Source: a virus
Virus record (IMG/VR): IMGVR_UViG_3300027763_001745
Location: 1 to 56,122 of that record
Length of the DNA stretch: 56,122 nucleotides
Reading direction: 5' to 3' (one strand)
Each line of letters opens with the position of its first letter. The first letter of the stretch is position 1. Under the pieces are notes generated by a model that saw only the letters and a list, made by a program, of their open reading frames with translations, was not told where the DNA came from and made no database searches. Position numbers and translations under genes: made by a program. Below are positions 21,748 to 55,309 of this stretch, one piece after another.

Positions 21748-22302
21748 TTAGACTTGTAAAGGATCTATGCTGATTTCATTTATATGAAATTCTTTTGGCT
21801 GCTGTAATATCCATTTGACATAGCCAGCAGCCGTTGTTATTGGCATTGTTTTTCTATCTGGATGTTTGTGTTGTACATTACTCAAACTACCAAAACTAAT
21901 TAAAGTTACTCTAGGATTCTCGGCCCATACTCCTGTCATACCTAGACTGTTTGCATAATCTCGTAGTGCTTTCTTTTCAGCATTGTATAACCAATCAGTG
22001 GCTTTCATAACTCTATCGGTGGTACTACCAATACAGATAATCAATGTTTGTTTACCTTCTGCTTTGAGTTGTTTATATACTGCTTCTAGAAGTAGTGTTT
22101 GATTAAACTTCCACAATGCACTATTAATGATAATCGCATCATAGTCAACGCTCATTTCAGCAAATGTTTGTTGATTTTCTGCCTTAGTTAAATCTAATTT
22201 ATGTGTTGTTCTACTAACAAATGTCAATTCGTGATCTTGTAATACTGAATCCAATGCTTGTGCTAGACCAAATGTAGGATTACCTGATACTAATATTTTC
22301 AT
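21748..22302 (-). CDS. SDR-like Rossmann protein
   Basis: This encodes 184 residues, shorter than typical short-chain dehydrogenases (about 250). The start ILVSGNPTFGLAQAL is an altered glycine-rich turn. LIICIGSTTDR supplies the catalytic Ser position, and Y-x3-K is present in WLYNAEKKALRDY. It may reduce or oxidise a keto or hydroxyl group of a sugar-like substrate. It starts on an ATGA overlap with the radical SAM gene upstream, so it belongs to that operon. Confidence 0.75.
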   Translation of the reverse strand: MKILVSGNPTFGLAQALDSVLQDHELTFVSRTTHKLDLTKAENQQTFAEMSVDYDAIIINSALWKFNQTLLLEAVYKQLKAEGKQTLIICIGSTTDRVMKATDWLYNAEKKALRDYANSLGMTGVWAENPRVTLISFGSLSNVQHKHPDRKTMPITTAAGYVKWILQQPKEFHINEISIDPLQV

Positions 22303-23612
22303 TTAAACAATCTTTCGTATTCTGGTGCAATATCTAATATGCTATGTCCACGTGCTTGGTCTAAATACTTTGTAAACTTAATAAACTCAGGAAGTTTATC
22401 ACTATAGTCGGCACCTAACATATACTTAGTGATACTGTTTAGTATGTTTTCTGCGTTTTTAGCAATGTCTTCTGGATACTCTGCTTTAAATTCAGCAATA
22501 CATTTTGCATAGTATGCAACAATTTCCTGTTTCATGTCCTCAGGTAATACACGCACATTAACACGTTTTGGTCCATGTGCTACATGATGTGTAATAATAG
22601 GACGCTTCTTTGTACTGTTAATTTTAGTAAAGCCACTGCTTTGTAACTTCCACTTCATGAAACGAGGAACATGCCAAATATTATATGCTGTTACTGTACA
22701 AGCTAGCCAAGCAAGTATGTTTGGATTCTTTTCTGCATATTCATCTAGCTTCTGCAAGTTCTTGTATGCTTGACTCCACTTCAAAGGCCAACGTTGGTAC
22801 TCAACTGTTTCGCCCATACCATCCATACTAGCACCTACACGAACTTGTTTAAACTTTGTCCACATATCCAATACACGATTAGGCAAATTACTCATGTTAG
22901 TATTGTATTCAATGATCATTTTCTTACTTTGACCTGCATCAATACATTTTTGTAAAAACTCATAATGACGTTCAATCATCATAGGCTCACCACCTGCCAT
23001 ATAAACATGTTTAATGTTTGGGATATTAGCTTCTATCTGTGTCCAGAAGCTTTCACTGTTATGCCAATCATAGTCTGTGGTAGATAGTCTACCATTTTCA
23101 TTACGAGTTAGTTTAACTGTGCCGTGAGTATCTTTGTATTCATCACTGCCATGATAATCTGTCCATTGTTCATACCAAGTATGACTATCAGTAGGTCCGC
23201 ACATACGACAAGCTAGATTACATAAGTTACCAAAACGTAGATCATAATATTCTAGTTTTCTGTCTTTAATGCTGCCATCTTCTTCGGTAATGTAACGAGC
23301 ATCATCAATACTGAACTTCCAGTTATCTAATTCATATTGTCTACGACTATTAAGTCCACTGGCTTCTTCACTTTGGCAACGACCGCATTCATTACTCCAT
23401 TCTCCCACTAACATATTCTTACGAACTTCTTTCATAAGAGTAGCATTTCGGGCAAGTTCCATGTCATCTCTACCAGCATTAAATGGACTGCCATCTTCAT
23501 GTCTGACCACGCCTTGGTTTTCAGTTACATTTGCTTGACAGCAAACACGAATATCACCATTGTTACGCACAGCTTGGAAGTTCCATGGGATAGGGCAAAA
23601 TGTATTACTCAT
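22299..23612 (-). CDS. radical SAM protein with N-terminal twitch-type Cys domain
   Basis: This encodes 437 residues from ATG 23612 (MSNTFCPIPW), with CGGAG upstream. The SAM-binding [4Fe-4S] motif is C131-x3-C135-x2-C138 (LCNLACRMC), followed by the SAM-contact AGGEPMM. A second Cys set lies before it: C6, C24/C25, C76 and C79. That is the layout of the N-terminal twitch radical SAM family, which has an auxiliary cluster ahead of the barrel. These proteins are common in environmental phages; no member's reaction is known to me. It overlaps its neighbours by 4 and 8 bp. Confidence 0.85.
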   Translation of the reverse strand: MSNTFCPIPWNFQAVRNNGDIRVCCQANVTENQGVVRHEDGSPFNAGRDDMELARNATLMKEVRKNMLVGEWSNECGRCQSEEASGLNSRRQYELDNWKFSIDDARYITEEDGSIKDRKLEYYDLRFGNLCNLACRMCGPTDSHTWYEQWTDYHGSDEYKDTHGTVKLTRNENGRLSTTDYDWHNSESFWTQIEANIPNIKHVYMAGGEPMMIERHYEFLQKCIDAGQSKKMIIEYNTNMSNLPNRVLDMWTKFKQVRVGASMDGMGETVEYQRWPLKWSQAYKNLQKLDEYAEKNPNILAWLACTVTAYNIWHVPRFMKWKLQSSGFTKINSTKKRPIITHHVAHGPKRVNVRVLPEDMKQEIVAYYAKCIAEFKAEYPEDIAKNAENILNSITKYMLGADYSDKLPEFIKFTKYLDQARGHSILDIAPEYERLFK

Positions 23613-24771
23613 AACTTTTATCTCCGGGGAATAACGGCAATTTAGTTCCTGGCGCACGTTTAGGAATCTTGCTATCTGCACTACTTACACAACTTGTTCC
23701 TCCGCAGGGCATGGGCTTGTCATATAACTTAAAGCCTGTTTCAATATGTCCCAAGGGTATTTCGCTACAACTGTAACTACGTTTCACTGTGCCATCTGGT
23801 TCACGAATAATAATACTACGATAGCCACTGCTACATTCCCACTTGTTAAAGTTATTAAAGTTAAATGCGTTGAAACGTTCTGCTTGATCCATGAACCATG
23901 GATTTCCGTCTTTATCGATAAACTCAATTTGATAATGAGGATCGATATCAACTTGTTTTTTACGACTTGGATCTGCTTTATCAACCATATACGTTGGTTT
24001 TGGTCTTTCAACTAGACCAGCCTTACGTGCTTTTTCTTCAGTGTAAGCACGTTGTGGCATACCATTATGCAATTTGGCCAGCATCTCAGGTGTATAACCA
24101 TCTACAACTCTACTGGCTGTTGGATCGCTTTGTGGTTTGAGTGTAACGTTAATACCTCTGTTATGGAAGTATAAACTTAAATCATAGATCTCATTAAACT
24201 GCTCAGGCACCATGACCATGTTAATAGTTATCTGTGTGTCATACTCCTGACATAATACTAGCTTGTCAGCAAATTCTTCAACTTTCTTATCTGTGTCAAC
24301 GTGTTCGCGATGGCAACTTGCAGTGATACTAGCACGATGAAAGTTCTTAACTGCTGGTACATATTTCTCTTCAAACCATTTAATAGGACGACTCATGTTT
24401 GATGTCATGTGTACACTGGTATAGTTTGTATTACCAGCATCAGCATTTAAGTGATTTAAAATATCAATGTAAGCAGGATGGAATGTTGGTTCACCTCCGC
24501 TTAGACTAAAGTGAAAACTATTAAATCCATTTGCTCTAGCTTGACGTTTAATTTCATCTACTGTATGTAGCATTAGAGGTGTGGGACGATGATCCTTTGT
24601 ATCACTGCGAGCATAAGGCCAGCAATAACTGCAACGATAGTTACAATAACGTCCTAATAGCCACGAGACTGTAAATAGATCTCGATATAACATTGTTCTT
24701 TGTCCGACTCTAACTAAATCACTAAAAGGAATTTTAGTAAAGTCATATTCGCTTGTTTTTAAATCACTCAT
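23605..24771 (-). CDS. radical SAM protein
   Basis: This encodes 388 residues. The SAM motif is C43-x3-C47-x2-C50 (RYCNYRCSYCWP), with LSGGEPTFHP near residue 88. Further Cys occur at the C terminus (WECSSGY, SYSCSEIP, MPCGGTSCVSS), consistent with a SPASM-type auxiliary cluster. No N-terminal twitch Cys are present, so this is a different subgroup from its downstream neighbour. It overlaps the small gene at 24764 by 8 bp. Substrate unknown; SPASM enzymes usually modify peptides or proteins. Confidence 0.85.
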   Translation of the reverse strand: MSDLKTSEYDFTKIPFSDLVRVGQRTMLYRDLFTVSWLLGRYCNYRCSYCWPYARSDTKDHRPTPLMLHTVDEIKRQARANGFNSFHFSLSGGEPTFHPAYIDILNHLNADAGNTNYTSVHMTSNMSRPIKWFEEKYVPAVKNFHRASITASCHREHVDTDKKVEEFADKLVLCQEYDTQITINMVMVPEQFNEIYDLSLYFHNRGINVTLKPQSDPTASRVVDGYTPEMLAKLHNGMPQRAYTEEKARKAGLVERPKPTYMVDKADPSRKKQVDIDPHYQIEFIDKDGNPWFMDQAERFNAFNFNNFNKWECSSGYRSIIIREPDGTVKRSYSCSEIPLGHIETGFKLYDKPMPCGGTSCVSSADSKIPKRAPGTKLPLFPGDKSYE

Positions 24772-24997
24772 TTTGTTCGTAGATAAATTTTACTTCTTTT
24801 CCTGGACCAGCTTCACTGGGCAAGCCGCCATACTCGTTAATATACCATTTAATGGCAGCTTTATACCAACCGGTACTATCATGTCTGCTTTCTTTATTAA
24901 ATTTGTATATGTTATCATTGGTAGCTTCCATGCTACTGATAATTCTAGCCGCTTCTAATTGTAACACTCTTAAGGGCATTGTGTCAAGATCTATCAT
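24764..24997 (-). CDS. small protein upstream of two radical SAM genes
   Basis: This encodes 77 residues. The first half is helical (MPLRVLQLEAARIISSME), the second contains WYKAAIKWYINEYGGLPSEAGPGKEV. It has no Cys. It is first in an operon running 24764, 23605, 22299, 21748, with translational overlaps throughout. It could be a partner, adaptor or substrate of the radical SAM enzymes. No known leader-peptide motif is visible. Confidence 0.65.
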   Translation of the reverse strand: MIDLDTMPLRVLQLEAARIISSMEATNDNIYKFNKESRHDSTGWYKAAIKWYINEYGGLPSEAGPGKEVKFIYEQNE

Positions 24998-25042: not shown

Positions 25043-25786
25043 TCAAATAGTAGTGAACATTGCTGTCTGTTTTTTATTAACAAAGAAGCTTTCCTCACGA
25101 CCTGAACGACGATAATGTGTTTCGCCATTTAGGTATGGTTCTTTTCTTTCAGTGTCAGTGCCATTGTATAAGTTTTTAATTTTTTCGTGTTTTGGTCCAA
25201 TACACATCAACACCACTGATTCAACAGGCTGTGTTTTGTATTCAGCACCAAATTCTTTTACCCATAAATCATGGAAGTGTGGATCACTCATAATGCTTTC
25301 TATACCACAGGCAACAAACGCTGTACCATAGCCCAAATCTTCTGCGGTAAGTTGTGCATAAGTGGCACTGATCATTGCATCACGTACACTGCTTTTAATC
25401 ATAGCATAACGATTTGCTTCTCCTTTGACATCGCTGTAGCAACTATCAAAGACTTCTTCACCGTGTTCTTCTTTAACATTAACCATTTGATGTTCTGGTG
25501 CTGGATTAGCAATATAAACTAGAACCAATGGTGCTAGAGTTTGTTTTAAATAAATGATACGATTATCATCTTCTTCATACAAAGTGATATCATCGCATAA
25601 AACTTGTTTGAGTTTTTTACCTTGTTCACTGTTAGTCAATGCCATTACTTTGTATCCGTAGATTTTGTTTTTACTTGGCGCACGGCGTGCCGATTCCATA
25701 ATAGTTTGAATATCCATTGGACTGATTTCATCAGTCATCAAACGAGTAGTATGTCTATTCTTAATTAATTCATGAACCCTGCTCAT
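25043..25786 (-). CDS. nitroreductase family FMN oxidoreductase
   Basis: This encodes 247 residues. Family marks are the N-terminal RHTTRLM, the FMN-binding SARRAPSKNK, the helix ISATYAQLTAEDLGYGTAFVA and the strand VLMCIGP. AAAGGAATTTTT precedes the ATG. Nitroreductase-fold enzymes reduce nitro groups or quinones and also act in peptide dehydrogenation and ring cleavage. Which applies here cannot be told. It is upstream of a small protein and two radical SAM genes on the same strand, so a shared pathway is possible. Confidence 0.88.
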   Translation of the reverse strand: MSRVHELIKNRHTTRLMTDEISPMDIQTIMESARRAPSKNKIYGYKVMALTNSEQGKKLKQVLCDDITLYEEDDNRIIYLKQTLAPLVLVYIANPAPEHQMVNVKEEHGEEVFDSCYSDVKGEANRYAMIKSSVRDAMISATYAQLTAEDLGYGTAFVACGIESIMSDPHFHDLWVKEFGAEYKTQPVESVVLMCIGPKHEKIKNLYNGTDTERKEPYLNGETHYRRSGREESFFVNKKQTAMFTTI

Positions 25787-25858
25787 AAAAATTCCTTTTA
25801 TATAAATGAATTATCATCATTCTCATGTATTTAGCGAAGAGAAATTTAATTTACAAAC

Positions 25859-25866
25859 ATTAAATA
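25859..25866 (+). promoter_or_regulatory. late-type promoter octamer, leaderless
   Basis: ATTAAATA followed by CACAC and the ATG at 25872. This spacing decides the start codon of the large radical SAM gene. Confidence 0.55.
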
Positions 25867-25871
25867 CACAC

Positions 25872-27944
25872 ATGAAACCATATAATTTAATAAACTCAAA
25901 AATCGTTGAAAAAGAAAAAGGTATACTTAACAAAACATTTACTAGATTTGTTGGTCCCGGAGATAGCATATTTTCAATGTTTTTTCGATCAATGGGTTAT
26001 CGAATAACCATACCACTTGAAGAACTACATTCTATAGATTTTGAGTTTGTCATTTATGACAACAACGAAAAAAACATAGAATTATTTAAAAGAATTTTAA
26101 CTTGGGATGGACAGATAAACAGCGAAGCAACATCTGAATTTGATGATGACTGGGAAATTTTTATAAAAACAATAATACAAGACCTTGACATTAAGATTCG
26201 TGATTTCCATCACGGTCAAACAATTGGTAGATCAAAGCGACGAGGATTCATCGACTTTCAAGCTACATGGAATCATTTTAAAAACAGTAAATTTACTTTT
26301 ATAAACATTGATGTTGTAAATGAAAATAGAAAGTTCTTAGACATATTAACTAATTTGCCGCCAATGTCTGATCCAGCTAACAGACAATTTATCAAACTTG
26401 ATTTCAATAAAACAGGCTATGACAAAGAATCATACAACGATGCTATTAATAATGTATTACACTTATTTTGGTTAAAAAGTTTTAAACAATTTCAAACAGT
26501 TTTAGAAATTTCAGATGATAACAATCAACCATTTGAAGATTTTGCAGGAAAATTATATGCAAGATTGAATCCAACATTTTGCATTTTACCATGGATGCAT
26601 ATACAATACAAACCCAGCGGACAAAGTAAACTATGCTGTAGATATGACAATATTAAAGAAATTAAAGAGTTTGAAGAATTTGAAAAAACATCAATCTCTA
26701 AAGAAAATTTATCACAATTATACAGAGAAAAAGAAAATTTAGTCATACAAAAAATATCCATGGAAGATAGCTTTAATAGTAATTACTGGAATACTGCTAG
26801 ACAATATACTATAGAAAATAAAGAAATCTCTGGTTGCCAAAAATGCTATAATGAAGAACAAGTTGCCGGTGAATTATCTACTTCAATGAGAACAGGATCT
26901 AGTATATTATATAATCAAGGCTACTTACACAAAAAACCCAAATATGAAAAACCTAAGATAACATTCTTAGAAGTTGGCTTCGGTAACTATTGCAATCTTG
27001 CATGTTTATCCTGCAATAGTACATTAAGCACCACATGGCACGACGACGAAGTTAAATTGAACAACATGAGCGATAAATCACTTCAGCGAGTAATATTCCC
27101 TAAGTTGGATAATATTAGATTCGAACCCAATGAGGAAACACTAAAGACTTTAGAATTAATCAAGTTCACTGGCGGTGAGCCTATGATTAATCCAGAGTTT
27201 ATTAGATTCATTGATCTTATCTGTGAAAAAGGAACACCAGAAAACATTAGTTTAGAAATTTACACTAACTGTAGCTATGTACCAAGTCCTAAATTATTGA
27301 AAAATCTAATTAGATTTAATACTGTACAATTGAATTTAAGTATTGATGCATATGGCACAGTCAACGATTATGTACGATATGGCAGTCATTGGTTTGGAGA
27401 TAGCAAGCAAACTGTTAGCAATGCGCTGGACTTTTGGCTAGAGCAGGGAAAAAATAATAAAAATATTCACGTTATCATGTCTTCTACGTTAAGCGTGTTA
27501 ACTGTATTTGACGTGCCTAACTTAATGACACGGTGGGTAGAAAAATATAAAAATTCAGGCAACGATATTGTAGTTGATATGAATACTAATCACGATGGAT
27601 TTTTTAAATTACAATTAGCTGTTGATCCATCATATATCAATATGAATATTTTACCATCTGAATATTATAAAGATATATTAGAATGGTGTGATGAATACGA
27701 CCAATCTTTTACAACAAGATATCCCGAATTTAGTGTAATTCCAGAATCTATCAATGCTAGTTTGGTTAAACTAAGAAATACTATATATCGTTGTTCTGGG
27801 AACCCCACTAATGCTCGTTTGTTAATAGAGTACTTAGAAAAAATGGATTCGATACGCGGTAACAGCGCATCAGAATCCATTCCTGTTATGCTTGGTAAAG
27901 TTAAAGAATATTTGCTAACTCAGGATAAACCTCAGCAAAACTAG
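25872..27944 (+). CDS. large radical SAM protein with extra N-terminal domain
   Basis: This encodes 690 residues from ATG 25872, chosen because ATTAAATA ends 5 nt before it; ATG 25806 in the same frame has no ribosome site. Residues 1-230 are an extra domain with FVGPGDSIFSMFF and FVIYDNNEKNIELFKRI, Rossmann-like and perhaps methyltransferase-like. The twitch-type Cys follow (C237, C255/C256, C322, C325), then the SAM motif C374-x3-C378-x2-C381 and FTGGEPMI. It is on the + strand among - strand relatives and overlaps the next one tail to tail by 44 bp. Confidence 0.85.
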   Translation: MKPYNLINSKIVEKEKGILNKTFTRFVGPGDSIFSMFFRSMGYRITIPLEELHSIDFEFVIYDNNEKNIELFKRILTWDGQINSEATSEFDDDWEIFIKTIIQDLDIKIRDFHHGQTIGRSKRRGFIDFQATWNHFKNSKFTFINIDVVNENRKFLDILTNLPPMSDPANRQFIKLDFNKTGYDKESYNDAINNVLHLFWLKSFKQFQTVLEISDDNNQPFEDFAGKLYARLNPTFCILPWMHIQYKPSGQSKLCCRYDNIKEIKEFEEFEKTSISKENLSQLYREKENLVIQKISMEDSFNSNYWNTARQYTIENKEISGCQKCYNEEQVAGELSTSMRTGSSILYNQGYLHKKPKYEKPKITFLEVGFGNYCNLACLSCNSTLSTTWHDDEVKLNNMSDKSLQRVIFPKLDNIRFEPNEETLKTLELIKFTGGEPMINPEFIRFIDLICEKGTPENISLEIYTNCSYVPSPKLLKNLIRFNTVQLNLSIDAYGTVNDYVRYGSHWFGDSKQTVSNALDFWLEQGKNNKNIHVIMSSTLSVLTVFDVPNLMTRWVEKYKNSGNDIVVDMNTNHDGFFKLQLAVDPSYINMNILPSEYYKDILEWCDEYDQSFTTRYPEFSVIPESINASLVKLRNTIYRCSGNPTNARLLIEYLEKMDSIRGNSASESIPVMLGKVKEYLLTQDKPQQN

Positions 27945-29160
27945 TATCATTTTGCTTGTCCATGAAATTGATATACTCGGCAGTTTCCGCAAGGTCTGCC
28001 GAGTAGTCTTCTGCGTTCATGTAATCGACTACATAATCACCATAGCGAACTATTCTACGCTGTTGCTGTTCTCTGCGTTTGACATTGGCCCATTGACTGT
28101 GAGTCCATAAATTTTCATCATCTAATGTCAATTTAAAGTCAGTCCAGTCTTGTGTAATCTTTGCTTTGATATCTGCTGGCAATACTTTAGGATTGATTGC
28201 TCGTGGATATTGTACCAAACTTGTATGGAACAATCCGCCGGCAGCATTGACAAACTTGACAATATCAACTAATCTGGTGATATTATAGATACTGACGGTT
28301 GTAGTTAAACTCATTTCAATATTTTTAAGTTCGTGCAATTTTTGCACATTGGCTACAATTTTTTGTATGTCACCATAGGTTCTAAAGTAACTAAATGTAG
28401 TGTCATCTCCATCTATGCTTACTCGTAGTATAATCTTTTTAAACTTTGGCCAATGATCCAATACATTATAGTAACCTAAACCCAGTGCTACTAGGTTGCT
28501 GTTATAACTCAGCGTTATGTTTTGTTCATGTCCGGCCATTGCATCAATCATTTCCCAATGACGTTTTTGTTGCAATGGCTCACCCCCTGCGATTAATACT
28601 TCTCGTAGATAAGGTATGGCATTTTTAAACTCTTCAAAACTCCGCTCAGGCAAACTGATATGTTTCTTTTCCAAGCGGCCTGCACCATGCTTGGTAAAAA
28701 ACTTTTTAACTTCAGGATCTTTAAATGCTAGAACTTCCCATTGACTGCTATAAGTAGGACTGCAATGTCTACAACGTAGATTGCAGGTATTATCAAAACG
28801 TATTTCAATGCTTTTAGGTTCATATGGCATTGAATAATCGTTGGTATTGACTTTACTAATGACTTCATCAAAGTCAATATTATAACTGTCTTTATATGTT
28901 TCGTTACAGGTTTGACGTGTACTTGCTACTCCACTATCTTCAAAGTCCCAGCAACTGCGACAACCATTTGGTCGTTCATCATTTAACACCGCACGGCGTA
29001 GTTCTCTAGTTTCGTTGCTGTTCCAAATTTCAGTCAAAGTCTGACTTCGATAATCACCAACACGATCTGGATAACGCCAACATGCACCTACTTTGCCTTC
29101 ATGTTTAATATTCTGATGTATAAAAGGCATTATACAAAAAGTCTTGCTATTTTTGTTCAT
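27901..29160 (-). CDS. radical SAM protein with N-terminal twitch-type Cys domain
   Basis: This encodes 419 residues. N-terminal Cys are C9, C27, C67 and C70. The SAM motif is C126-x3-C130-x2-C133 (TCNLRCRHC), with IAGGEPLQQ. The ATG at 29160 lies 5 nt after CTTAAATA, which is formed by the last codons and stop of the upstream gene. The 3' end overlaps the + strand relative by 44 bp. The C terminus FAEVYPEL is shared with the proteins at 22299, 31037 and 32197 in similar form. Substrate unknown. Confidence 0.85.
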   Translation of the reverse strand: MNKNSKTFCIMPFIHQNIKHEGKVGACWRYPDRVGDYRSQTLTEIWNSNETRELRRAVLNDERPNGCRSCWDFEDSGVASTRQTCNETYKDSYNIDFDEVISKVNTNDYSMPYEPKSIEIRFDNTCNLRCRHCSPTYSSQWEVLAFKDPEVKKFFTKHGAGRLEKKHISLPERSFEEFKNAIPYLREVLIAGGEPLQQKRHWEMIDAMAGHEQNITLSYNSNLVALGLGYYNVLDHWPKFKKIILRVSIDGDDTTFSYFRTYGDIQKIVANVQKLHELKNIEMSLTTTVSIYNITRLVDIVKFVNAAGGLFHTSLVQYPRAINPKVLPADIKAKITQDWTDFKLTLDDENLWTHSQWANVKRREQQQRRIVRYGDYVVDYMNAEDYSADLAETAEYINFMDKQNDTSFAEVYPELANIL

Positions 29161-29161
29161 A

Positions 29162-30223
29162 TCAATATTTAAGAACGTTTTCTTTTTTCAATTTATTATC
29201 AATGTATAGGGTTGTATTTTCTTCATTACCACAGGTACCTAGACATGTGATAAGGTTTCCGTTTTCTATTGTGTCATTCCATTTTGAACTTATTTTATAT
29301 TGCTGTTTAAGTACATCTTCTACTTGATGTATATTTAAATCAAAGTCTTTAAGATTATAGTTTTCTTTTAGATTCCAACTACCCGGACTGTCGTGTGTGT
29401 GAGTACCTAAATAACAACAAGGCATTAATATTCCATTTGCTGCCAAATAAACTTCTTTTCGTTCTAAACTTTTGCAACTAATCTTATTTTGATTTAATTT
29501 TTTATACTTTGTTAGATCAAACTTAAACATTGTATTTGGTACATGTTCTTCTTTACCTACATTACTGTGCCTAAATTGTTCTTGTTCAGGTGGTTCTAAT
29601 GTAAATACATGCTTTCCTTCTACCATTACTTTAAAATCTTTTTTACCCCTAAACTTTTGAGTAACTTTTAATCTAAATTTGATGTCCAAGTCTTTGGCCA
29701 ACTGTTTGGCTGTTTCGACTTGATGTTCGTTGTGTTTGAATACAATAAAGTTCCACTGAGCTGTTCCACCTGCGGCTACATATGCTTTCAAATTGGCATA
29801 CACTTTATCATACTTAACACCAATTCTATACTTGTCTAATGCTTCATTATCAGTGCCATCTATTGCAAAATTAATGAGTACATGACGACGAGCAAGACTT
29901 GACCACCAATCTTCACTGCGATATCCACCATTGGTATCTATACTAATACTTTTACAGCCATTGTCCATTAAGTAATTAACAAATTCTGGTAACAGTTTGT
30001 TTAAGCAAGGATCGCCATATACTCCGCTGAAGTATACATGGTCTAATTGACTGGCAAACTCTGGAGTAAACAACTTATAAAATACATCTGCTGTTAAATC
30101 ACCCTCTATTAAATCTGGTTGCACAAATCCGTGCCCGGTATATCTGCTACACATTGGGCATTGACTATTACAGCGACTGCTCGCTTCTACATGAACTATA
30201 CGTATATTTTCTTTTTCTATCAT
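29162..30223 (-). CDS. radical SAM/SPASM-type protein
   Basis: This encodes 353 residues. The SAM motif is near the N terminus at C18-x3-C22-x2-C25 (RCNSQCPMC). A FSGVYGDPCLN segment replaces the usual GGEP. The C-terminal part has ILMPCCYLG and ITCLGTCGNEE, a SPASM-like auxiliary-cluster set. It resembles the proteins at 34432 and 36816, so three members of this subgroup occur. SPASM enzymes mostly act on peptides, some on sugars or cofactors. It overlaps the oxygenase gene by 4 bp. Confidence 0.85.
   Translation of the reverse strand: MIEKENIRIVHVEASSRCNSQCPMCSRYTGHGFVQPDLIEGDLTADVFYKLFTPEFASQLDHVYFSGVYGDPCLNKLLPEFVNYLMDNGCKSISIDTNGGYRSEDWWSSLARRHVLINFAIDGTDNEALDKYRIGVKYDKVYANLKAYVAAGGTAQWNFIVFKHNEHQVETAKQLAKDLDIKFRLKVTQKFRGKKDFKVMVEGKHVFTLEPPEQEQFRHSNVGKEEHVPNTMFKFDLTKYKKLNQNKISCKSLERKEVYLAANGILMPCCYLGTHTHDSPGSWNLKENYNLKDFDLNIHQVEDVLKQQYKISSKWNDTIENGNLITCLGTCGNEENTTLYIDNKLKKENVLKY
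29166..29173 (-). promoter_or_regulatory. late-type promoter octamer, leaderless
   Basis: CTTAAATA on the - strand, 5 nt before the ATG at 29160. It coincides with the codons for Leu-Lys-Tyr at the end of the upstream gene. Confidence 0.5.
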
Positions 30224-33612: not shown

Positions 33613-33636
33613 TGTGTTCTTTCATGTCAACATACT

Positions 33637-33644: not shown

Positions 33645-33710
33645 ATCTTGTGAGTGTTATTTCTAACAGATTCATAGTTTATTGAAGTCTATGTTTTTCA
33701 AAACATATTT

Positions 33711-47119: not shown

Positions 47120-47552
47120 GTTCGTAGCTGATTCTACCATGTGTTCTACCTGCATCATCTTGCAAGCGTATTACATCATCTAACTCAGTGGTACTGGTTT
47201 CCATAAACTCCAAATCTGTGGTTGCAATTACTCTATGTACATATCCCGGAGTAACATGAAATACAACACCTTCTTTAAGTTCTATGCGTTCAAATGTATA
47301 TTCATAGGCTTCAACTTGGCGTTCTGTCATGCCTTGTTCTAGGAATTTGGCAATGTCTAATGGTTCTTTGCTACGATGTAACATACCTTCACCGCTTAAA
47401 ACATAGTTAGTTTCTATTTTATGTTCATGCACTTGTAAACTGGTTCTATTGCCAGCTTTAAACAAAATACGTTTACTGGCATAGGGTGTGGTCACCCCAT
47501 CTGCTATCCAAAGTTCGTAGCCCCAATGTTTGTTTACTTTTTTAATTTCCAT
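47112..47552 (-). CDS. cupin, mannose-6-phosphate isomerase-like
   Basis: This encodes 146 residues from ATG 47552 (MEIKKVNKHWG), whose A is the last base of the upstream stop. KHWGYELWI and SLQVHEHKIETNYVLSGEG give the first cupin motif with His ligands, and VFHVTPGYVHRVIA the second. This is the same form as the C-terminal cupin of GDP-mannose pyrophosphorylase/isomerase proteins. It probably isomerises a sugar phosphate feeding the nucleotidyltransferase downstream. Confidence 0.85.
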   Translation of the reverse strand: MEIKKVNKHWGYELWIADGVTTPYASKRILFKAGNRTSLQVHEHKIETNYVLSGEGMLHRSKEPLDIAKFLEQGMTERQVEAYEYTFERIELKEGVVFHVTPGYVHRVIATTDLEFMETSTTELDDVIRLQDDAGRTHGRISYEHD

Positions 47553-48361
47553 TATGTCCATCCATTCTCTTTTAATCTCGCCATGACTATCTCTGCGGCT
47601 TTTTTATGACCCTCTGCGCTGGCATGCCAGCTGGGTAAATCATCCGGATAATCTAAACTTAGTTGTCCCCAACTAAAATCTAATAAGTTTACAATGTCGA
47701 TATACGAACTGTAATACTCCACTTCATGTGTTAGTATAAGATGACGTATGCCTTTATTTTTTAACAATTGATGTACCATAGTCATCATGCCAATGCTGTG
47801 TATTCTGTTAAGTCTAGGCTCATGTATATATTGTGCATAATCATATAATGCTTTGATGCGTCTAATATCTTCCTTTTGAAACTTAAAAAAATAGTCTCCG
47901 CCATTGCGATTTTGTTTTATTATTGTTTCCCAATAGTTGGTTATACCATTTAAGTTTTCGGTAAACATGCCGCCGCGATAATCGGGATCATCGCTCATGG
48001 GGTTGTCTAACTGTATCATATTACCACCTGCGTGATATGTACCATGACCATAGGGAGGATATTGATGATAATTGACATCAGTCAAGTTTATGTATCCAGT
48101 ATGACTAAATTCATAGTCTACGGGAAACCAATCTATACGATCATAACTGGTGGGACTTACTATAACCAAATCTGTATCTAGTTTGTCCACTGCATACTTT
48201 GCTTGTAGGTATATGCTTAGATTGGTGCTAGATCCTTTGGCCAAATTGATCAAAGGTTTGTTTAATTGTTTGCTTAATAAGGAACCATATGGTTCATTAT
48301 CCAAATCATGGCAGCCTATACCGATATTAAAACTGTCACCGCATATTGTTAGTGCTGCCAT
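47552..48361 (-). CDS. SGNH-like hydrolase family protein
   Basis: This encodes 269 residues. The nucleophile block is ICGDSFNIG (S10). A KGSSTNLSI segment follows at the GxND position and the C-terminal block is PSWHASAEGHKKAAE, giving the catalytic His. These three blocks fit the SGNH fold well. It may act as an O-acyltransferase or esterase on glycan. It is one of four such proteins in positions 47.5-51.5 kb. Confidence 0.75.
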   Translation of the reverse strand: MAALTICGDSFNIGIGCHDLDNEPYGSLLSKQLNKPLINLAKGSSTNLSIYLQAKYAVDKLDTDLVIVSPTSYDRIDWFPVDYEFSHTGYINLTDVNYHQYPPYGHGTYHAGGNMIQLDNPMSDDPDYRGGMFTENLNGITNYWETIIKQNRNGGDYFFKFQKEDIRRIKALYDYAQYIHEPRLNRIHSIGMMTMVHQLLKNKGIRHLILTHEVEYYSSYIDIVNLLDFSWGQLSLDYPDDLPSWHASAEGHKKAAEIVMARLKENGWT

Positions 48362-49118
48362 ATGTTTCCTGCCACCATTGTTGTTCTCTTTCTCTTACTG
48401 TGCCAAAACTATGTCCTGGCAATAGCATGCCATTATTAAATAAATCTGTACTGGTATTACGTAGTATGGCAAATTCAAAATATTCGTCTAACGTTTCTTT
48501 TACTTGTATATTGGTTTCATTTAAAAACTTAGCCATCATCGAATGTATTTCCATGTTATCTTGTGTTTCTTGGTAATTCTTTAAATAGTATGCGCCGAAT
48601 TCATTGCCCAATTTAGCCAATGTGGGCAAGTTAACCATTAGTAGTACATCGTTCATTATAGGTAAGTTCCTAATAGCATCTCTAGTAATTCCTATTGTAC
48701 TGTGAATAACATTGTCTTCTGGAACCATATCAAATAAATCATGCAATGGTTTCTTCTTATACAAATAAAGATCCGGACGTAATATAATAATTCGCTTATA
48801 ATTTCTAAATGTCGTATAAGGCAGTATATTATAGTAAGCCAACTTCCATTTGTTAATCATGTTAATACTGCTATGATGCTGTGTATATTCCGGCAATTTA
48901 CTCTGTGTGCATACTGTTACAGTATTAAACTTAACATGACAGTTAGCAGTATCTAAACTCAAATGATCAAAGCTATTACCTACGACATTGTGACTAGGAG
49001 TGTTATACATATTTTGATCCACTACTAGGTAGTAGTCACAGTCGTAGGGAAACTGCCAACTGCCGCTGGCGTTGACCAAGTGTCTTAATGTTCCAGATAC
49101 TATTACTGCTGTTGACAT
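48336..49118 (-). CDS. putative glycosyltransferase-like protein ((C)xSGxxR family)
   Basis: This encodes 260 residues. The N terminus TAVIVSGTLRHLV parallels the CFSGQxR start of the proteins at 51457, 52280 and 53176. RIIILRPDLYLYKK supplies an R-x-D segment at the same place as in those three. A HSTIGITRDAIRN block and an EIHSMMAKFLNE helix follow. By pattern it is a nucleotide-sugar-dependent transferase, but no motif proves this. It overlaps SGNH genes on both sides, which supports work on the same glycan. Confidence 0.6.
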   Translation of the reverse strand: MSTAVIVSGTLRHLVNASGSWQFPYDCDYYLVVDQNMYNTPSHNVVGNSFDHLSLDTANCHVKFNTVTVCTQSKLPEYTQHHSSINMINKWKLAYYNILPYTTFRNYKRIIILRPDLYLYKKKPLHDLFDMVPEDNVIHSTIGITRDAIRNLPIMNDVLLMVNLPTLAKLGNEFGAYYLKNYQETQDNMEIHSMMAKFLNETNIQVKETLDEYFEFAILRNTSTDLFNNGMLLPGHSFGTVREREQQWWQETYGSTNNMR

Positions 49119-49729
49119 ATATATTCGTATATTATTTCTGCAACTGCCTCATGGCCTTGTTCGTTAAAATGCCAATCTCCCTGTGGATATTTATTAGTAG
49201 TAGGATCTTGCCAATATTCTTTATGTTGATCCATCCAGTCTTTCCAATTGATATGGCCGTCTGCCGCAATAACATTTTTAAGTTCTGCAGTATTTGGACT
49301 AAAATCTACTAGCCAAGTATACACACGATAACCTTGATGCTGTAGTGTTTTAATCTTTTGTCTCCATCTTCTTTCATTAAAGTCATATATGCTATTCCAT
49401 TCATGCATTAGATGTGCTAATTCACTTTGACTGTCATGTTTAACTAGTTCTTCAAAAGTAACACGACTGAAGAAACTTGGACTTATTATTATAACATCAT
49501 CATGAGTCCAGAGCAAGATATCTTCGTCAATTCGGTTGTTTACGTAATTCCAACCTATACCGCTGAGACTTTTTGTCTTACATTCTAAGCCTAACTGTTT
49601 GGCTAAATGTGTTCCCCAATAGTCGTAGCCTTTAAGATTTCTAAATCCTTCAGAATCAAAATCTGCACCGCCTGGTTCAATTTGAAAAGGTTCGCTAAAG
49701 CTACATCCATAAACGTATAACTTATTCAT
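49103..49729 (-). CDS. SGNH-like hydrolase family protein
   Basis: This encodes 208 residues from ATG 49729 (MNKLYVYGCSF). The nucleophile is S10 in YGCSFS, followed by LSGIGWNYVNN at the GxND position and a C-terminal DWHFNEQGHEAVAE. The last block is a classic D-x2-H-like end of SGNH enzymes. It starts on an ATGA overlap with the next SGNH gene upstream. Likely esterase or acyl transfer on sugars. Confidence 0.75.
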   Translation of the reverse strand: MNKLYVYGCSFSEPFQIEPGGADFDSEGFRNLKGYDYWGTHLAKQLGLECKTKSLSGIGWNYVNNRIDEDILLWTHDDVIIISPSFFSRVTFEELVKHDSQSELAHLMHEWNSIYDFNERRWRQKIKTLQHQGYRVYTWLVDFSPNTAELKNVIAADGHINWKDWMDQHKEYWQDPTTNKYPQGDWHFNEQGHEAVAEIIYEYICQQQ

Positions 49730-50571
49730 AACACACCTCTTGCCTGCATGTCTTGCCAAATATAGTCGGCCCACAGAGTATGTGCAAAATGTAAAGGATG
49801 CAGATATTTGCCTGTTGGTAAATCATTCATGTGAACGTGGTGCATAAAACTATCCCTAAAATTTTGTATATTTTTTTGATTTTCATGCCACTCTAACTCT
49901 TTACTAAATTCTTCTGGTACATTGACATCAGTTTTAAACTCGCCGCCTTCCCACCATGGTGGTAATGCGTTAAAGAAAAAATGCTTGATGCCCAAGTTGT
50001 TCAATGTATTGCTCAGCAAAAATACCGAGTTAAAATACGATTTTATTCTTGCATAGTCATTGTACACTAATGCATTGTATTGTTCGTGTAATTGATCCAT
50101 GTGTTTGATATAAACTTCATCGTTTATTTCTAATCGGTCCACTGTGGTGCTAAAAGGTTGTACTAAGTTCCAACGTTGCCATGTGTTTTCAACATATATC
50201 TCGTCTCGTTCGCTGGTAGTCCAACCTATAACTATTAGAGTTTTTTTGTAGTCTGAAGGCGTTAAACTGTAGACATAGTCTAATGTTTTGCGTAGTATAC
50301 GAGTATTGCTGGCTCCACCAATGGCATCATTGAATAAATTTTTTGCACCAGACAGTGTTTTTAATCTACTGGCCCAATTAAAATCGTTATAATGAAGATC
50401 ATATCTGGATACTATTTGATTATTGCTGTCTAGTATATTCCAGTTGTAGTCATCGTCAGCATTTTCTATGTGTAGATTATTGTCAGCAAGATACTGATGA
50501 AACGCTGGGTCTTGTTCCAATTCGTTACCAGCAGTCCAACTGCAACCATTAACATACACCTGTTCGATCAT
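49726..50571 (-). CDS. SGNH-like hydrolase family protein
   Basis: This encodes 281 residues. The first block is VNGCSWTAG (S11), and the second, IGGASNTRILRKTLDYV, contains the Gly and Asn of the oxyanion hole. LIVIGWTTSERDEI is shared with the protein at 50568 (FVMIGWSSPERNSF), so these two are relatives. A C-terminal LHPLHFAHTLWADYI supplies the His. It overlaps the genes on both sides by 4 bp. Confidence 0.72.
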   Translation of the reverse strand: MIEQVYVNGCSWTAGNELEQDPAFHQYLADNNLHIENADDDYNWNILDSNNQIVSRYDLHYNDFNWASRLKTLSGAKNLFNDAIGGASNTRILRKTLDYVYSLTPSDYKKTLIVIGWTTSERDEIYVENTWQRWNLVQPFSTTVDRLEINDEVYIKHMDQLHEQYNALVYNDYARIKSYFNSVFLLSNTLNNLGIKHFFFNALPPWWEGGEFKTDVNVPEEFSKELEWHENQKNIQNFRDSFMHHVHMNDLPTGKYLHPLHFAHTLWADYIWQDMQARGVL

Positions 50572-51497
50572 ATTAACTTATTGTCTTTAATATATCTTGC
50601 CAATTCTTCTGCCCATGCTTCATGAGCATCTGGACTAGGATGCCATCCCCAAAACACTGGATTTATTTCAAGATCCGTCTGTTGTATATAACTCTTAAAT
50701 GTATTCTTTGGTTGATCTTTTCGATAAAAACGCACAGGGTCTACTGAGTCCCATAGAGCAGTATAATCAAACACCATGTTGTCTCTACTGTCGGGGTTAG
50801 TGGTACTTTGATATTGATATCCGTGATTGCGTCCGACCAAGTTTTTTAACTCTGTGCGTACATCTAAGTCCTCCCAATCAGAGGCATGTATAGCATTGGG
50901 TGTTTGATAAAAACTATTAAAGCACATCCATTTAATGCCATGGTTATTACAAAAGTTTTGTAGCTGTATAACATTCAGCACATATCTAGTCATGTATTCT
51001 TCTGGATGCCACAAGTAAGCAATGTACATTTCCCAAAACTTTTCTTGTTCTTTACTGTCAAAGTGTGGCACATTAGGCCACACTCTAAATAGCATACTGA
51101 TGTTTTCATCTTTATACCAAAAACTATTTCGCTCAGGACTCGACCATCCAATCATAACAAATAAATTTTCTGTACTTAGATTGTTCTTGAGATACTTATT
51201 ACTGATGTAGTCTATTGTACGACGTAGTATACTGCCATTATCGTCTGCTGGCCAGCTTAGGTTAGTAATATCTGCATCAAAGTATTTTTGTAAATGATGA
51301 CTAAACACACGTGGGCGTCTATACGCATCATTAGCTTCTTCAAAATCAAAGTATCCTACATAAGTTCCAGGCGGGTGCTGTGCTACAATTTCTGGATCTA
51401 CAATTTCACTACCAAATACCCAGCTGTCGCCATCGCAGATAATTTCTGCACGTGGTTTAGATGTACCATTCAAACCATTTTCTTCTAATTTTGTCAT
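50568..51497 (-). CDS. SGNH-like hydrolase family protein
   Basis: This encodes 309 residues from ATG 51497 (MTKLEENGLN). The first block is ICDGDSWVFG (S25). NGSILRRTIDYI matches the second block of its downstream relative. The C terminus WGWHPSPDAHEAWAEEL provides the His. The N-terminal 15 residues look disordered. It may be a second acyl-modifying enzyme with different specificity. It overlaps the upstream transferase-like gene by 41 bp. Confidence 0.72.
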   Translation of the reverse strand: MTKLEENGLNGTSKPRAEIICDGDSWVFGSEIVDPEIVAQHPPGTYVGYFDFEEANDAYRRPRVFSHHLQKYFDADITNLSWPADDNGSILRRTIDYISNKYLKNNLSTENLFVMIGWSSPERNSFWYKDENISMLFRVWPNVPHFDSKEQEKFWEMYIAYLWHPEEYMTRYVLNVIQLQNFCNNHGIKWMCFNSFYQTPNAIHASDWEDLDVRTELKNLVGRNHGYQYQSTTNPDSRDNMVFDYTALWDSVDPVRFYRKDQPKNTFKSYIQQTDLEINPVFWGWHPSPDAHEAWAEELARYIKDNKLI

Positions 51498-52293
51498 AAT
51501 CATAAATTCCGTCTAAGTTTTCTTCTACTGCTGTACTACGCACTACAGCATATTCGATGTGCCTATTGCCATCGGGGTGTATACCTAAATTAGTAAGATG
51601 CTCATAGAGTAAACATCCAGGACCATAATACATATCAGGTTGTAAATCGATACTGCCATCATTGACTGCTACTAGATCGGCATTGTGTAAATATTTGTAG
51701 GTTGAATACAAATCTCCCAACAAATCCATGACAGGACTTTGAGCATAGAATAGCACATCGTCAAAGTTATTGTAATTAAACTCTGTGGGGAATTTGCTTA
51801 TAGCTGTGGATGTATAAGCAATGCCGGGCCATATTCTAAACAAGGGAAATCTATGTGCAGGATTATATATAGTATCTAATCGTGCCTTAACCACTATGTC
51901 ATATTGAAACTGATTTTTAAGTTCGTGATTTCGCTTCATCAATAGACTCTTGGCTAGACTATAAAACATTGAATCCCAACTCCGTGGGAATTTTTCTGGT
52001 ATCCAGTTTTCCACTTCAATGGTCACAGGCTTGTATACTTCTTTGATGGCAGCACCATCATTATGCCGTTCATTGTGGCTGTGATCATGTCCCGTTTTAG
52101 GATAACGCCAAGTATTAGTATCCCAAGTATGTATAAAATAATCTGTTTGCACAGGAATACCCAACTCTGGATGTGGATATTCATCGTTGTTGAAGAATCT
52201 CTTTATATTACCTGCACTGGCTTGCCAATGACGTGCTTGTCCGCTGAAACAAACTGCTACTCTAAATTTTTTATCGTTGTTATATAAGCTCAT
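51457..52293 (-). CDS. putative glycosyltransferase-like protein (CxSGQxR family)
   Basis: This encodes 278 residues. The N-terminal strand VAVCFSGQARHW, then DYFIHTWDTNTW, then IVVKARLDTIYN with its R-x-D, and DDVLFYAQSPVMDLLGDLY occur in the same order in the proteins at 52280 and 53176. This is consistent with a nucleotide-sugar-binding fold, though the family is not one I can name. It overlaps its neighbours by 14 and 41 bp. The three copies suggest successive transfer of different sugars. Confidence 0.65.
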   Translation of the reverse strand: MSLYNNDKKFRVAVCFSGQARHWQASAGNIKRFFNNDEYPHPELGIPVQTDYFIHTWDTNTWRYPKTGHDHSHNERHNDGAAIKEVYKPVTIEVENWIPEKFPRSWDSMFYSLAKSLLMKRNHELKNQFQYDIVVKARLDTIYNPAHRFPLFRIWPGIAYTSTAISKFPTEFNYNNFDDVLFYAQSPVMDLLGDLYSTYKYLHNADLVAVNDGSIDLQPDMYYGPGCLLYEHLTNLGIHPDGNRHIEYAVVRSTAVEENLDGIYDYDKIRRKWFEWYI

Positions 52294-53152
52294 GGCCGCC
52301 TATTTCTCCACTTAGTCCTGATTGAAGTTTGCGTTCAATATAATCACTTTGACGATATACCTTGGGATCTATTGACAGTCCTTTAACATGCATACGCAAC
52401 ATTTTGGCATAAAAATACAATGCATGTTCAGTGGATGTCATTTCATTGTTAAAGCAACGGCGTCCTAACATTGGTAGCCAGCGATAGAAATCACATATTC
52501 TATCAAAGGTAGGACTGTCAGCATACCAAAATATATCTCCCAGTCTATGAAAAGGAAAGGCGCTTTTATCCTTGGTTGTGTGACAACTGTAAACGGTGTT
52601 GTATCTAGGTAATCGAGCATCAGTATTGGCAGCATTGAAGAACCAGTTAATTTGAGTGTCATCTAAATACAAATCATATCTTATTCTAAAACACATATCA
52701 TAGCGTATACCTTGCTCAAATTCATAGGATTTTTTAAGATGTGCGGCATACATCACAGCATAAAACTGACTACCAGCCCATTCGATGGCAGATTCACCAT
52801 ATTCGTTTATATTATGTGTATTGAGTTCAAAGACTTCTTCGGGCTTTGTTCTACTTACTTGTTCATTTTCAATAATATATCTTGTAGGCTTTAGTGCCAA
52901 TAGAAAATTATTTTTTTCTTCTTCACTGATTGGTATGCCACAGACACGTCTATAGTCAAATGTCTTATCATTGTTATTGACTATAGGACTGGACATAACA
53001 GCATGAGGAGGTGTGTTGAAATCCCATATGTGAGCAAACACATCAACATCAGCTTTAAAATGTGTTGCCAGTCGTTGTTTGAATTTTTCCCATTGTGGTT
53101 GACATTTATCCCACGTGCGCGGTTGTCCGCTAAAACACAAAGCTATTTTCAT
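52280..53152 (-). CDS. putative glycosyltransferase-like protein (CxSGQxR family)
   Basis: This encodes 290 residues. Shared blocks are IALCFSGQPRTWDK, VDVFAHIWDFNTPP, CFRIRYDLYLDD and GDIFWYADSPTFDRICDFY. The ATG is 5 nt after AATAAATA, so a leaderless late mRNA may start here in addition to read-through from the gene at 53176. It has more Cys than its relatives. Acceptor unknown. Confidence 0.65.
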   Translation of the reverse strand: MKIALCFSGQPRTWDKCQPQWEKFKQRLATHFKADVDVFAHIWDFNTPPHAVMSSPIVNNNDKTFDYRRVCGIPISEEEKNNFLLALKPTRYIIENEQVSRTKPEEVFELNTHNINEYGESAIEWAGSQFYAVMYAAHLKKSYEFEQGIRYDMCFRIRYDLYLDDTQINWFFNAANTDARLPRYNTVYSCHTTKDKSAFPFHRLGDIFWYADSPTFDRICDFYRWLPMLGRRCFNNEMTSTEHALYFYAKMLRMHVKGLSIDPKVYRQSDYIERKLQSGLSGEIGGHELI

Positions 53153-53175: not shown

Positions 53176-53949
53176 TTAGTTAACTAGTAGTTTAACATCA
53201 AATACACTGATGTGTCTATTCAAATGGTAATTTCGATAGATAAAAATACTATTATTTTTCATTGAACGAACTGAAATATTATGATTACTCAAATGTAAAC
53301 GCATGTGTTGTTGCCAATCAATGATATTATGTTCATTACTACCGGATCTAACCGGTCCAAGGTCAGCCATAATATCTGCGTTGGCACTATTAGCAATCCA
53401 AAATATATCTTCTACGGCATCTGGTAAACGATTGGTAGGATCACTCACATACACGTGATCTAATTTATTGGCTATGTAATTTAGTTCGTCAATAAATCTA
53501 TGTTGATATTCAAAGACTTGATCAAATCTCATTTTAACTACTAATTTGTATTGCGATCCCAGACGTTGTTCATAGTCATATTTTAATTTATTTGATTCGT
53601 AGAGTGTTTGCAACATGGGAATACTGCTGTGGCAAAAACCATATCGATCCAGTATCATTTGTTGGTATTGACTTTGATACAAGTCAAGCTCGTCTACTTT
53701 CATTGATTTTGGTTTATAGAAATCAGTGATTTGATCTATTTTTTCTTGACCAAAACGATGCAAGACATTGGGGTCTTCTCCAGGATCTTTTGGACCCCAT
53801 GCACTAACAGATTCAGTAGTCCAAGTATGTATAAAGAAATCAATGTTGGGCCACATGCTGCCAAAAAAATGTTTAATTGCCGGAGCAACTGCAACACCTG
53901 TTCTTATTTGGCCGCTGATACAAACAGCAATTCTATCTCCAAGACTCAT
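53176..53949 (-). CDS. putative glycosyltransferase-like protein (CxSGQxR family)
   Basis: This encodes 257 residues from ATG 53949 (MSLGDRIAVC). An in-frame ATG at 54018 would add 23 residues inside the upstream gene and lacks support. Blocks are IAVCISGQIRTG, DFFIHTWTTES, LVVKMRFDQVFE and EDIFWIANSANADI, matching the two proteins downstream. It overlaps the radical SAM gene by 17 bp. The link between a radical SAM enzyme and sugar transfer is by position only. Confidence 0.65.
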   Translation of the reverse strand: MSLGDRIAVCISGQIRTGVAVAPAIKHFFGSMWPNIDFFIHTWTTESVSAWGPKDPGEDPNVLHRFGQEKIDQITDFYKPKSMKVDELDLYQSQYQQMILDRYGFCHSSIPMLQTLYESNKLKYDYEQRLGSQYKLVVKMRFDQVFEYQHRFIDELNYIANKLDHVYVSDPTNRLPDAVEDIFWIANSANADIMADLGPVRSGSNEHNIIDWQQHMRLHLSNHNISVRSMKNNSIFIYRNYHLNRHISVFDVKLLVN

Positions 53950-55309
53950 ACAGTTCTTTAAACTCTGGGAATGTTTTAATAAAATCAGTTCCTCGTCGAC
54001 GATCATGCTCGTTGACAAATGCTACAAAATCCCGTCTCAATCTAGTAATATCTTTGTCATCTTTTTTGTTAACTACTATTTCGTATATGCGTTTGAACTT
54101 ATCTGCTTCCCAATCAAAGAATCCTCGTTGTTTAGGACCTTGGTCTAAATTAGCATACATAAAATCAACTTGACTCTTAATCTGTTCTGCCCATGAGTTA
54201 GGCAATATAAACACTGCTTGATGAGCAGGGTAACGGAGATATGGTATGTCAACAATCAGCGGGCTAGTATCTCTAGTACCAAATTCTTTTTTGATAGACA
54301 ACATGTCTTCTAAAAACTTAGTGTAACCTGGAACGCTCATGGCATTGTATGTACTCATGATAGTAAAAGTTGCTTTAGGCACTTCTGTTAATACTCTACG
54401 TATATTAGCAATCCATTGATTGTAGTCAAGTCCATTGCGTATATATTCTGCTTGACTACCATATGTATCAGCACTGGTAAAAATTTTAAACTTGGCTACT
54501 TTCTTTTCTTCTGTGATGATTTTTATTTTTTCAATGAATTTAGAAAGTAAACTATCAGGCACACACATGTTACTGTTGATACTAAAATCAATATTTGGAT
54601 TTGGATTTTCTATCATATAATCCAAGGCTTTGAATGTATCTTTAGTTAATAAAGGCTCGCCGCCAGTGATTCTAAAATGTTTAAGATTGGGATAAACTTC
54701 TGGCCACCAACGCCAAAATGCTTCAACATAGGGATTATATTGATTATGTGGGATAGGCATTTGATCCGTGGCCTTAAACCATTCTATGTTATTAAACTGT
54801 GTGCTGGTAGGATATGCTCCATGCTGTTGTATTTCTTCCATCCAAGCACTGCTGATTTGTGGACTACAATAACTACATTTGAAATTACATACACTACTAA
54901 AGCTGACTTCTAAATAACTGGGATTGACATCTTCGTCGCCTGTGAATTTTTTAATTTCTTCTAAGTAAGGTTGTGCCCATGTTTGATCGTAGCTTTTATA
55001 AATCCTATCACTGATATTACTGTCACTACTATCTTCAACACGCCAGCAATAGTCACATTCTTCAGGACGTTTTCCTGTTAGCATCATTTTGCGCTGAGAT
55101 TTTTTAAAATTAGTATTGTGCAATGCGCTGGGATTGACTACTAATTCGTTTAAAGGAATTTTATGTGTAGTAGGATGATGACAACTATGATTATGCCCAG
55201 TTTGTAAATGTAGTGTTACTTGTTTCCATTTTGCAATGCAGAAACTAGGACTGACTGCATTGATTTTATTTTTGTATTCTTGAATTGGGTTTGAAGTAGG
55301 ATCTGACAT
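53933..55309 (-). CDS. radical SAM protein with N-terminal twitch-type Cys domain
   Basis: This encodes 458 residues. N-terminal Cys are C24, C43, C85 and C88, within CIAKWKQVTLHLQ and HSCHHPTTHK segments. The SAM motif is C141-x3-C145-x2-C148 (VCNFKCSYC), with ITGGEPLLT. The C terminus FIKTFPEFKEL matches the other members. Its closest relative in the window is the protein at 35551. It is the first gene of a nineteen-gene - strand run and the radical SAM gene nearest to the Cys-rich repeat protein. Confidence 0.86.
   Translation of the reverse strand: MSDPTSNPIQEYKNKINAVSPSFCIAKWKQVTLHLQTGHNHSCHHPTTHKIPLNELVVNPSALHNTNFKKSQRKMMLTGKRPEECDYCWRVEDSSDSNISDRIYKSYDQTWAQPYLEEIKKFTGDEDVNPSYLEVSFSSVCNFKCSYCSPQISSAWMEEIQQHGAYPTSTQFNNIEWFKATDQMPIPHNQYNPYVEAFWRWWPEVYPNLKHFRITGGEPLLTKDTFKALDYMIENPNPNIDFSINSNMCVPDSLLSKFIEKIKIITEEKKVAKFKIFTSADTYGSQAEYIRNGLDYNQWIANIRRVLTEVPKATFTIMSTYNAMSVPGYTKFLEDMLSIKKEFGTRDTSPLIVDIPYLRYPAHQAVFILPNSWAEQIKSQVDFMYANLDQGPKQRGFFDWEADKFKRIYEIVVNKKDDKDITRLRRDFVAFVNEHDRRRGTDFIKTFPEFKELYESWR

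Follow-up and report, generated by a model that had tools for sequence, protein, structure and literature searches.

The virus record IMGVR_UViG_3300027763_001745, whose whole length of 56,122 nucleotides is the window analysed here, carries an island of radical S-adenosylmethionine (SAM) enzymes in which three enzyme families and one glycosyltransferase-like family form a core that is also found in other phages and on the chromosomes of Bdellovibrionota. The recurrence of the three enzymes in phages and in Bdellovibrionota points to a single pathway, most likely one of sugar modification, and because the core is common to both, the set is better read as one unexplored pathway than as a random collection. 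We regard the proposal that the radical SAM module is a putative conserved glycan-modifying pathway, acting on the host envelope or on the virion, as evenly poised between right and wrong. Phage islands rich in radical SAM genes have been on record since 2010, with neither a core nor a function defined for them, and dense islands of this kind are already published; what is new here is the layout in two modules, the conserved core, and the counterpart in Bdellovibrionota.

The island consists of a radical SAM module at 21748–41996 and a glycan-type cluster at 41993–53152. In the comparison with six long related contigs the genes of the first module are largely common, whereas those of the second are absent. 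An original prediction made from the same DNA had suggested that the dense and diverse set of radical SAM genes is a dedicated biosynthetic or modification system; this is supported for the part built around the core, and the second module is separate. In what follows, genes are named by their first coordinate and the strand is given in brackets.

The conserved core

The core comprises the radical SAM families of 36816 (family A4; 36816–38027, −), 32197 (family A5; 32197–33612, −), and 23605 (family A6; 23605–24771, −), together with a family of proteins bearing a DxD motif (family A3), and it is often accompanied by 22299 and 21748. Family A4 served as the query for the virus and bacterial collections, the alignment of the seven twitch-type enzymes of the island having no conserved stretch. 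Relatives of A4 occur in more than 550 viral stretches, and gene maps were drawn for 80 phage loci found with this family, with neighbour counts being made on the non-redundant loci (n = 59). The recurring order in phages begins with tail fibres, two conserved open reading frames (ORFs) of about 275 residues, one to three DxD-family genes, and a methyltransferase-like gene, so named from the appearance of its sequence and without a Pfam match; it continues with a 77-residue gene, A4, the 32197 family, 22299, an SDR-like gene, and 23605, and the radical SAM genes interspersed among these differ between loci. A DxD-family gene stands upstream of A4, no more than five genes away, in 43 of the 59 non-redundant loci (no more than eight in 39 of 47), and the 32197 family lies at most nine genes downstream of A4 in 28 of 37. 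The genes are thus not scattered without conserved neighbours, as a fixed group recurs in order in many phages and its core on bacterial chromosomes.

What is inserted among the core genes differs greatly from phage to phage, and tail-fibre-like ORFs stand at the island edge in the window and in many relatives. Phage loci longer than 15 kb have a median of seven radical SAM-like ORFs, and most of 27 related virus records hold 7–15 radical SAM genes; these figures, with published phage sets of 11–12 and of 12, do not support the rarity that the original prediction had implied. Two virus records of 92 and 77 kb (G014 and G016, with loci L042 and L049) have 15 radical SAM matches each.

In a scan of bacterial genomes, relatives of A4 at 40–47% identity were found chiefly in Bdellovibrionota, where 13 loci bring two or all three of the core families together at short distance; several of these loci also have 22299-like, SDR-like, DxD, and methyltransferase-like genes. 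Some of these core loci sit on contigs of 0.5–0.9 Mb among ordinary chromosomal genes. The 23605 family is present in 12 of 192 Bdellovibrionota genomes, and was found in none of the 299 and none of the 146 genomes of two other phyla. A gene of the DxD family or of GT2 accompanies the core in 11 of 12 Bdellovibrionota loci, the exception being a 5.5-kb fragment, and all loci lacking the DxD family have a GT2 gene, save that same fragment; the background of GT2 is just 8–21 genes per genome of 1.6–4.5 Mb, and PF00535 is matched by 14 of 84 neighbour proteins. Five loci from metagenome-assembled genomes labelled as other phyla (L115, L136, L149, L162, and L173) were excluded from the bacterial evidence because their phage-like radical SAM arrays suggest that they may be phage contigs binned as bacterial. 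One of them, L149, is labelled Rickettsiales and has an almost unbroken run of about 14 radical SAM ORFs, a higher density than that of the window; it is probably a phage contig.

A quick tree of the orthologues of 32197 nests the main clade of phages within paraphyletic Bdellovibrionota sequences, which suggests a transfer from bacteria to phages; the suggestion is tentative because the outgroup lies far away and some divergent sequences from phages branch deeper.

The radical SAM enzymes of the island

The original prediction counted eleven genes with a CxxxCxxC motif in the island, and all eleven are ORFs that lie where it placed them and carry the motif. They make up 11 of the 29 ORFs of at least 200 residues in 21748–55309, whereas residue-shuffled copies gave 0.036 on average and never more than 1. 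The radical SAM profile PF04055 matched ten of the eleven at the DNA level, nine of them above the cut-off, and all ten of the island proteins that were scanned at E < 1e-3. The prediction also assigned an additional N-terminal cysteine set of the twitch type to seven of them, and a search with NF033640 (N_Twi_rSAM, curated cut-off 170 bits) picks out exactly these seven, over the full length of the model and at 234–428 bits; the remaining four score 40–60 bits and lie outside the family. The auxiliary cysteines ahead of the CxxxCxxC motif are invariant at C14, C32, C95, and C98 (32197 numbering).

Among the seven, the core enzyme 32197 scores highest (428 bits). Close to the core in phages and bacteria is 22299 (22299–23681, −; 382 bits), whose annotated GTG start is probably too early: an internal ATG near 23612 (MSNTFCPIPW) appears likelier, as it fits the profile from residue 25 and removes most of the overlap with 23605. 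The others are 25806 (25806–27944, +), with the twitch radical SAM domain following an N-terminal domain of about 250 residues (234 bits at residues 255–693), 27901 (27901–29160, −; 321 bits, with the SPASM profile PF13186 at residues 9–71), 31037 (31037–32200, −; 331 bits, SPASM at residues 11–74), the variable cassette 35551 (35551–36819, +; 243 bits), and 53933 (53933–55309, −; 354 bits) at the far end of the island.

The three genes that the prediction had set apart by a GDP or DDP variant and C-terminal cysteines prove to be a single family of about 32% identity: the core enzyme 36816, which has C30/C34/C37 and the GDP variant, and its paralogues 29162 (29162–30223, −) and 34432 (34432–35511, −; DDP variant), both variable cassettes. 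Four C-terminal cysteines are invariant in the trio (C300, C319, C387, and C391 in 36816 numbering). The core enzyme 23605, matched by PF04055 and 44–84% identical across phages, is a separate C-terminal type with four conserved cysteines at 313, 335, 356, and 361, so that an auxiliary cysteine set is present in all eleven enzymes. The nearest kin of most of the eleven are proteins of other phages, at up to 92% identity. Duplication within the window was rejected as the main origin of the eleven, since most of these kin belong to other phages and the tree is resolved in small part only.

The DxD family and other partners in the first module

Three consecutive ORFs belong to the DxD family: 37984 (37984–38685, −), a divergent GT-A-like protein whose model has a predicted local distance difference test (pLDDT) score of 88 and whose nearest solved folds are GT-A; a second copy, 38660 (38660–39655, −); and 39627 (39627–41996, −), in which about seven WYLD-type repeats precede a terminal domain clustering with the family. 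In the DxD motif, of the kind that binds metal in GT-A glycosyltransferases, D68 is invariant across 39 sequences and D66 is present in at least 90%, and in comparison with solved folds the top matches of the family model are mostly GT-A enzymes, at probabilities of 0.75–1.0. Long versions of the WYLD-repeat protein also occur in loci L013, L014, and L037.

Of the genes that the original prediction saw interleaved with the radical SAM genes, the nitroreductase 25043 (25043–25786, −) is confirmed by PF00881. The SDR-like protein 21748 (21748–22302, −), which recurs with the core, is a weak call at 27 bits, and 30220 (30220–31044, −), a conserved protein of 274 residues whose cluster (number 22) is present in 11 loci, is matched by neither Pfam nor NCBIfam, so that its designation as a 2-oxoglutarate (2OG) oxygenase derives solely from a motif. 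A phage-specific partner of 77 residues at 24764–24997 (−) has no cysteine and is conserved uniformly along its length, with 14 invariant columns in 19 sequences. The conserved partners that are not radical SAM enzymes drew no match in Pfam; these include the methyltransferase-like clusters 3 and 11 as well as the 77-residue protein. A profile test of whether the methyltransferase-like gene is replaced by the N-terminal domain of 25806 gave no support.

Proposed pathway and its alternatives

The island may be understood as a region of host interaction through surface chemistry, in which variable cassettes are inserted into a conserved pathway. As GT-A glycosyltransferases, the DxD proteins would assemble a glycan; the radical SAM enzymes would use a [4Fe-4S] cluster and SAM to generate a 5'-deoxyadenosyl radical, which would take hydrogen from an unactivated C–H bond of the glycan or of a sugar precursor. 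The outcome on the sugar could be dehydrogenation, epimerisation, deoxygenation, or a similar change, with the auxiliary cluster serving to hold the substrate or to accept an electron. In a manner comparable to serotype genes, the variable cassettes would alter the final structure, the product would be displayed on the envelope of the infected cell, where it would block competing phages, or on the virion fibres, and the MetK of the phage would help to supply SAM. In its fullest form, the proposal is that the core and the divergent GT-A-type family constitute an uncharacterised pathway that remodels a glycan or glycoprotein of the surface by radical chemistry. The pathway would have resided in Bdellovibrionota for a long time, have been acquired by large aquatic phages, and have been diversified there by radical SAM cassettes whose exchange would act as a chemical switch of serotype; this we consider possible, at somewhat less than an even chance. 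If the glycan reading is true, phages carry exchangeable radical chemistry that alters cell or virion surfaces. With three radical SAM enzymes and a single glycosyltransferase-like family, the core is a small gene set that lends itself to testing, and because it also lies on bacterial chromosomes it offers a way into genetics outside an uncultured phage.

In favour of the glycan reading stand the conserved neighbourhood in phages and its bacterial counterpart, the DxD motif and GT-A fold matches, the DxD-family or GT2 genes near the bacterial core loci, the nucleotide-sugar genes and MetK of the contig, and the location next to tail-fibre genes, as in the host recognition cluster of pelagimyophages. 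Several results weigh against the glycan reading. The GT-A fold matches of the DxD family have template modelling scores (TM-scores) of only 0.3–0.44, and a sequence search of the PDB with this family found no usable solved relative. The methyltransferase-like gene that is common beside the core elsewhere was not found in the window, and MetK is present in only 4 of 31 virus records, a near-identical contig being among these four, and is therefore no fixed partner of the island. The nearest solved relatives of 32197 (model pLDDT 88.5), by sequence as well as by fold, are the peptide maturases SkfB and CteB, with MoaA and DesII among the fold matches that follow. As SkfB and CteB are maturases of ribosomally synthesized and post-translationally modified peptides (RiPPs), this last result favours an alternative in which the targets of the radical SAM enzymes are the side chains or the backbone of proteins or peptides, for instance those of the adjoining tail fibres, and the DxD enzymes glycosylate the modified protein. 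It is further favoured by the N-terminal SPASM-type domain, such domains being common in peptide-acting enzymes, and by the tail-fibre genes that adjoin the island in many phages. However, no conserved small cysteine-rich or leader-core peptide gene accompanies the enzymes: among 159 small intergenic ORFs searched for a RiPP precursor there was no conserved candidate beside a maturase, the sole family of such ORFs common to several loci goes with the carbamoyltransferase, and the 77-residue partner is free of cysteine and conserved along its entire length. Solved SPASM structures are, moreover, skewed towards peptide maturases, and the TM-scores are only about 0.3. We consider modification of proteins or peptides rather unlikely, yet a serious rival.

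It is improbable, in our estimate, that the module makes a diffusible metabolite or a modified nucleotide with an antiviral, toxic, or signalling role, as viperins do; weak profile similarity to viperin and MoaA and the many redox and transferase genes, including the nitroreductase, speak for it, but the island ORFs reach only 19–39 bits with the viperin model NF038283 (cut-off 180 bits), and no genes of the polyketide, peptide-synthetase, or export type were noticed within the module. The strong variation of the cassettes and the unrelated, unshared second module would also fit a gene-capture hotspot beside the tail fibres that accumulates unrelated metabolic genes with no shared pathway; chance capture does not predict a core that recurs in order in distant phages and is present on bacterial chromosomes, and we hold this to be very improbable. 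Taken together, the evidence favours a pathway that includes glycosyl transfer, with both sugar and protein being compatible as the target of the radical enzymes.

Relation to known systems

The host recognition cluster of pelagimyophages combines glycosyltransferases with radical SAM cassettes beside tail fibres and resembles the window in being a large variable region adjoining tail fibres in aquatic phages; its description, as far as consulted, contains neither a conserved core of radical SAM genes nor a counterpart in bacteria nor a function for these genes (PMC7029224). Pelagimyophages are T4-like; the replication-type genes of the window phage are nearest to PA5oct-type phages. Campylobacter phages CP220 and CPt10 resemble the window in encoding 11–12 radical SAM proteins each, in an exchangeable cluster with genes of the nucleotide-sugar-transferase type (PMC2853527). 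They have no close kin of the window core, the match to 36816 covering 46% of its length at 29% identity, and CP220 encodes an amidinotransferase. Among annotated phages there was no match for 23605 or for the DxD family. The T4-like marine genome TARA_ERS488813_N000010 holds 12 radical SAM genes and iron-sulphur assembly genes (PMC5332604); by this published description its radical SAM density equals that of the window, which has no IscU/NifU match.

The family N_Twi_rSAM, of which seven window proteins are full-length members and to which four window enzymes do not belong, carries a name that states an architecture rather than a function. BtrN, BlsE, and DesII, radical SAM enzymes of the sugar and aminocyclitol type, show weak profile or fold similarity, and BtrN has an auxiliary domain of the twitch type; they are nevertheless very distant from the window enzymes, whose twitch domain is N-terminal, and none of them can be called an orthologue. 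The open-access papers found by the searches contain no description of the core of three families, of its counterpart on chromosomes, or of a function, and an earlier description elsewhere is possible.

The second module

The second module is a separate glycan-type set, as judged from its profile matches. It comprises a NodU-like carbamoyltransferase (41993–43465, −; PF02543/PF16861, phrog_1601) and, at 43462–53152 (−), ORFs resembling a GatZ/KbaZ-like aldolase, a shikimate dehydrogenase, a nucleoside triphosphate (NTP) transferase with an APH domain, a cupin, SGNH/DUF6071-like proteins, and transferases; DUF6071 is matched by two SGNH-like ORFs, 49726 and 50568. In many phage loci the gene immediately upstream of the carbamoyltransferase encodes a small protein that ends in the C-terminal tail RKRDPFIY(K/R), for which no description was found in the literature. 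Of 19 carbamoyltransferase genes, 15 are accompanied by the tail, and two of the other four sit at contig ends; the tail occurs in L016, L017, L018, L040–L044, L048, L056, L060, L065, and L079; in the window (43462–44532) and in L033 it terminates the GatZ-like protein instead.

Genome setting

The record is linear, 56 kb long, and reads as a large tailed aquatic phage. A second contig, IMGVR_UViG_3300009180_001960, matches 26819–40051 of the window (13.2 kb) at 99.985% identity with zero gaps, and the radical SAM genes of the two contigs are collinear, shifted throughout by 271 bases, which makes an assembly error unlikely for this part. To the left of the island lie phage genes for an RNase H/exonuclease, an ATPase, an HNH endonuclease, and ThyX, as well as a GTP cyclohydrolase; for the RNase H and the ATPase, which are replication-type genes only, the closest annotated phages are PA5oct-type Pseudomonas phages at about 51–53%. 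The island is bordered by a tail-fibre-like structural protein (19809–21689, −) whose N-terminal part is similar to ORFs that stand at the edge of the island in relatives.

A twelfth radical SAM enzyme of the contig, the QueE-like 5201 (5201–6061, +; phrog_2076), lies outside the island and probably serves DNA modification rather than being one of its members. MetK (6399–7493, +) is full-length, with all three SAM-synthetase Pfam domains above the cut-off, and its family, phrog_1569, is listed in PHROGs as being of unknown function. The NifU_N profile found no iron-sulphur supply gene in the window, and IscU/NifU is present in 3 of the 31 records searched; in G012 and G013 it occurs together with MetK. 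The nucleotide-sugar genes of the contig are the UDP-glucose dehydrogenase-like 2471 and the NTP transferase 45587. A PhyH-type 2OG oxygenase at 10164–10859, outside the island, is a firmer call than 30220, and at the right edge (55469–56122) a structural-looking protein with Thr-Pro-rich repeats continues past the end of the contig.

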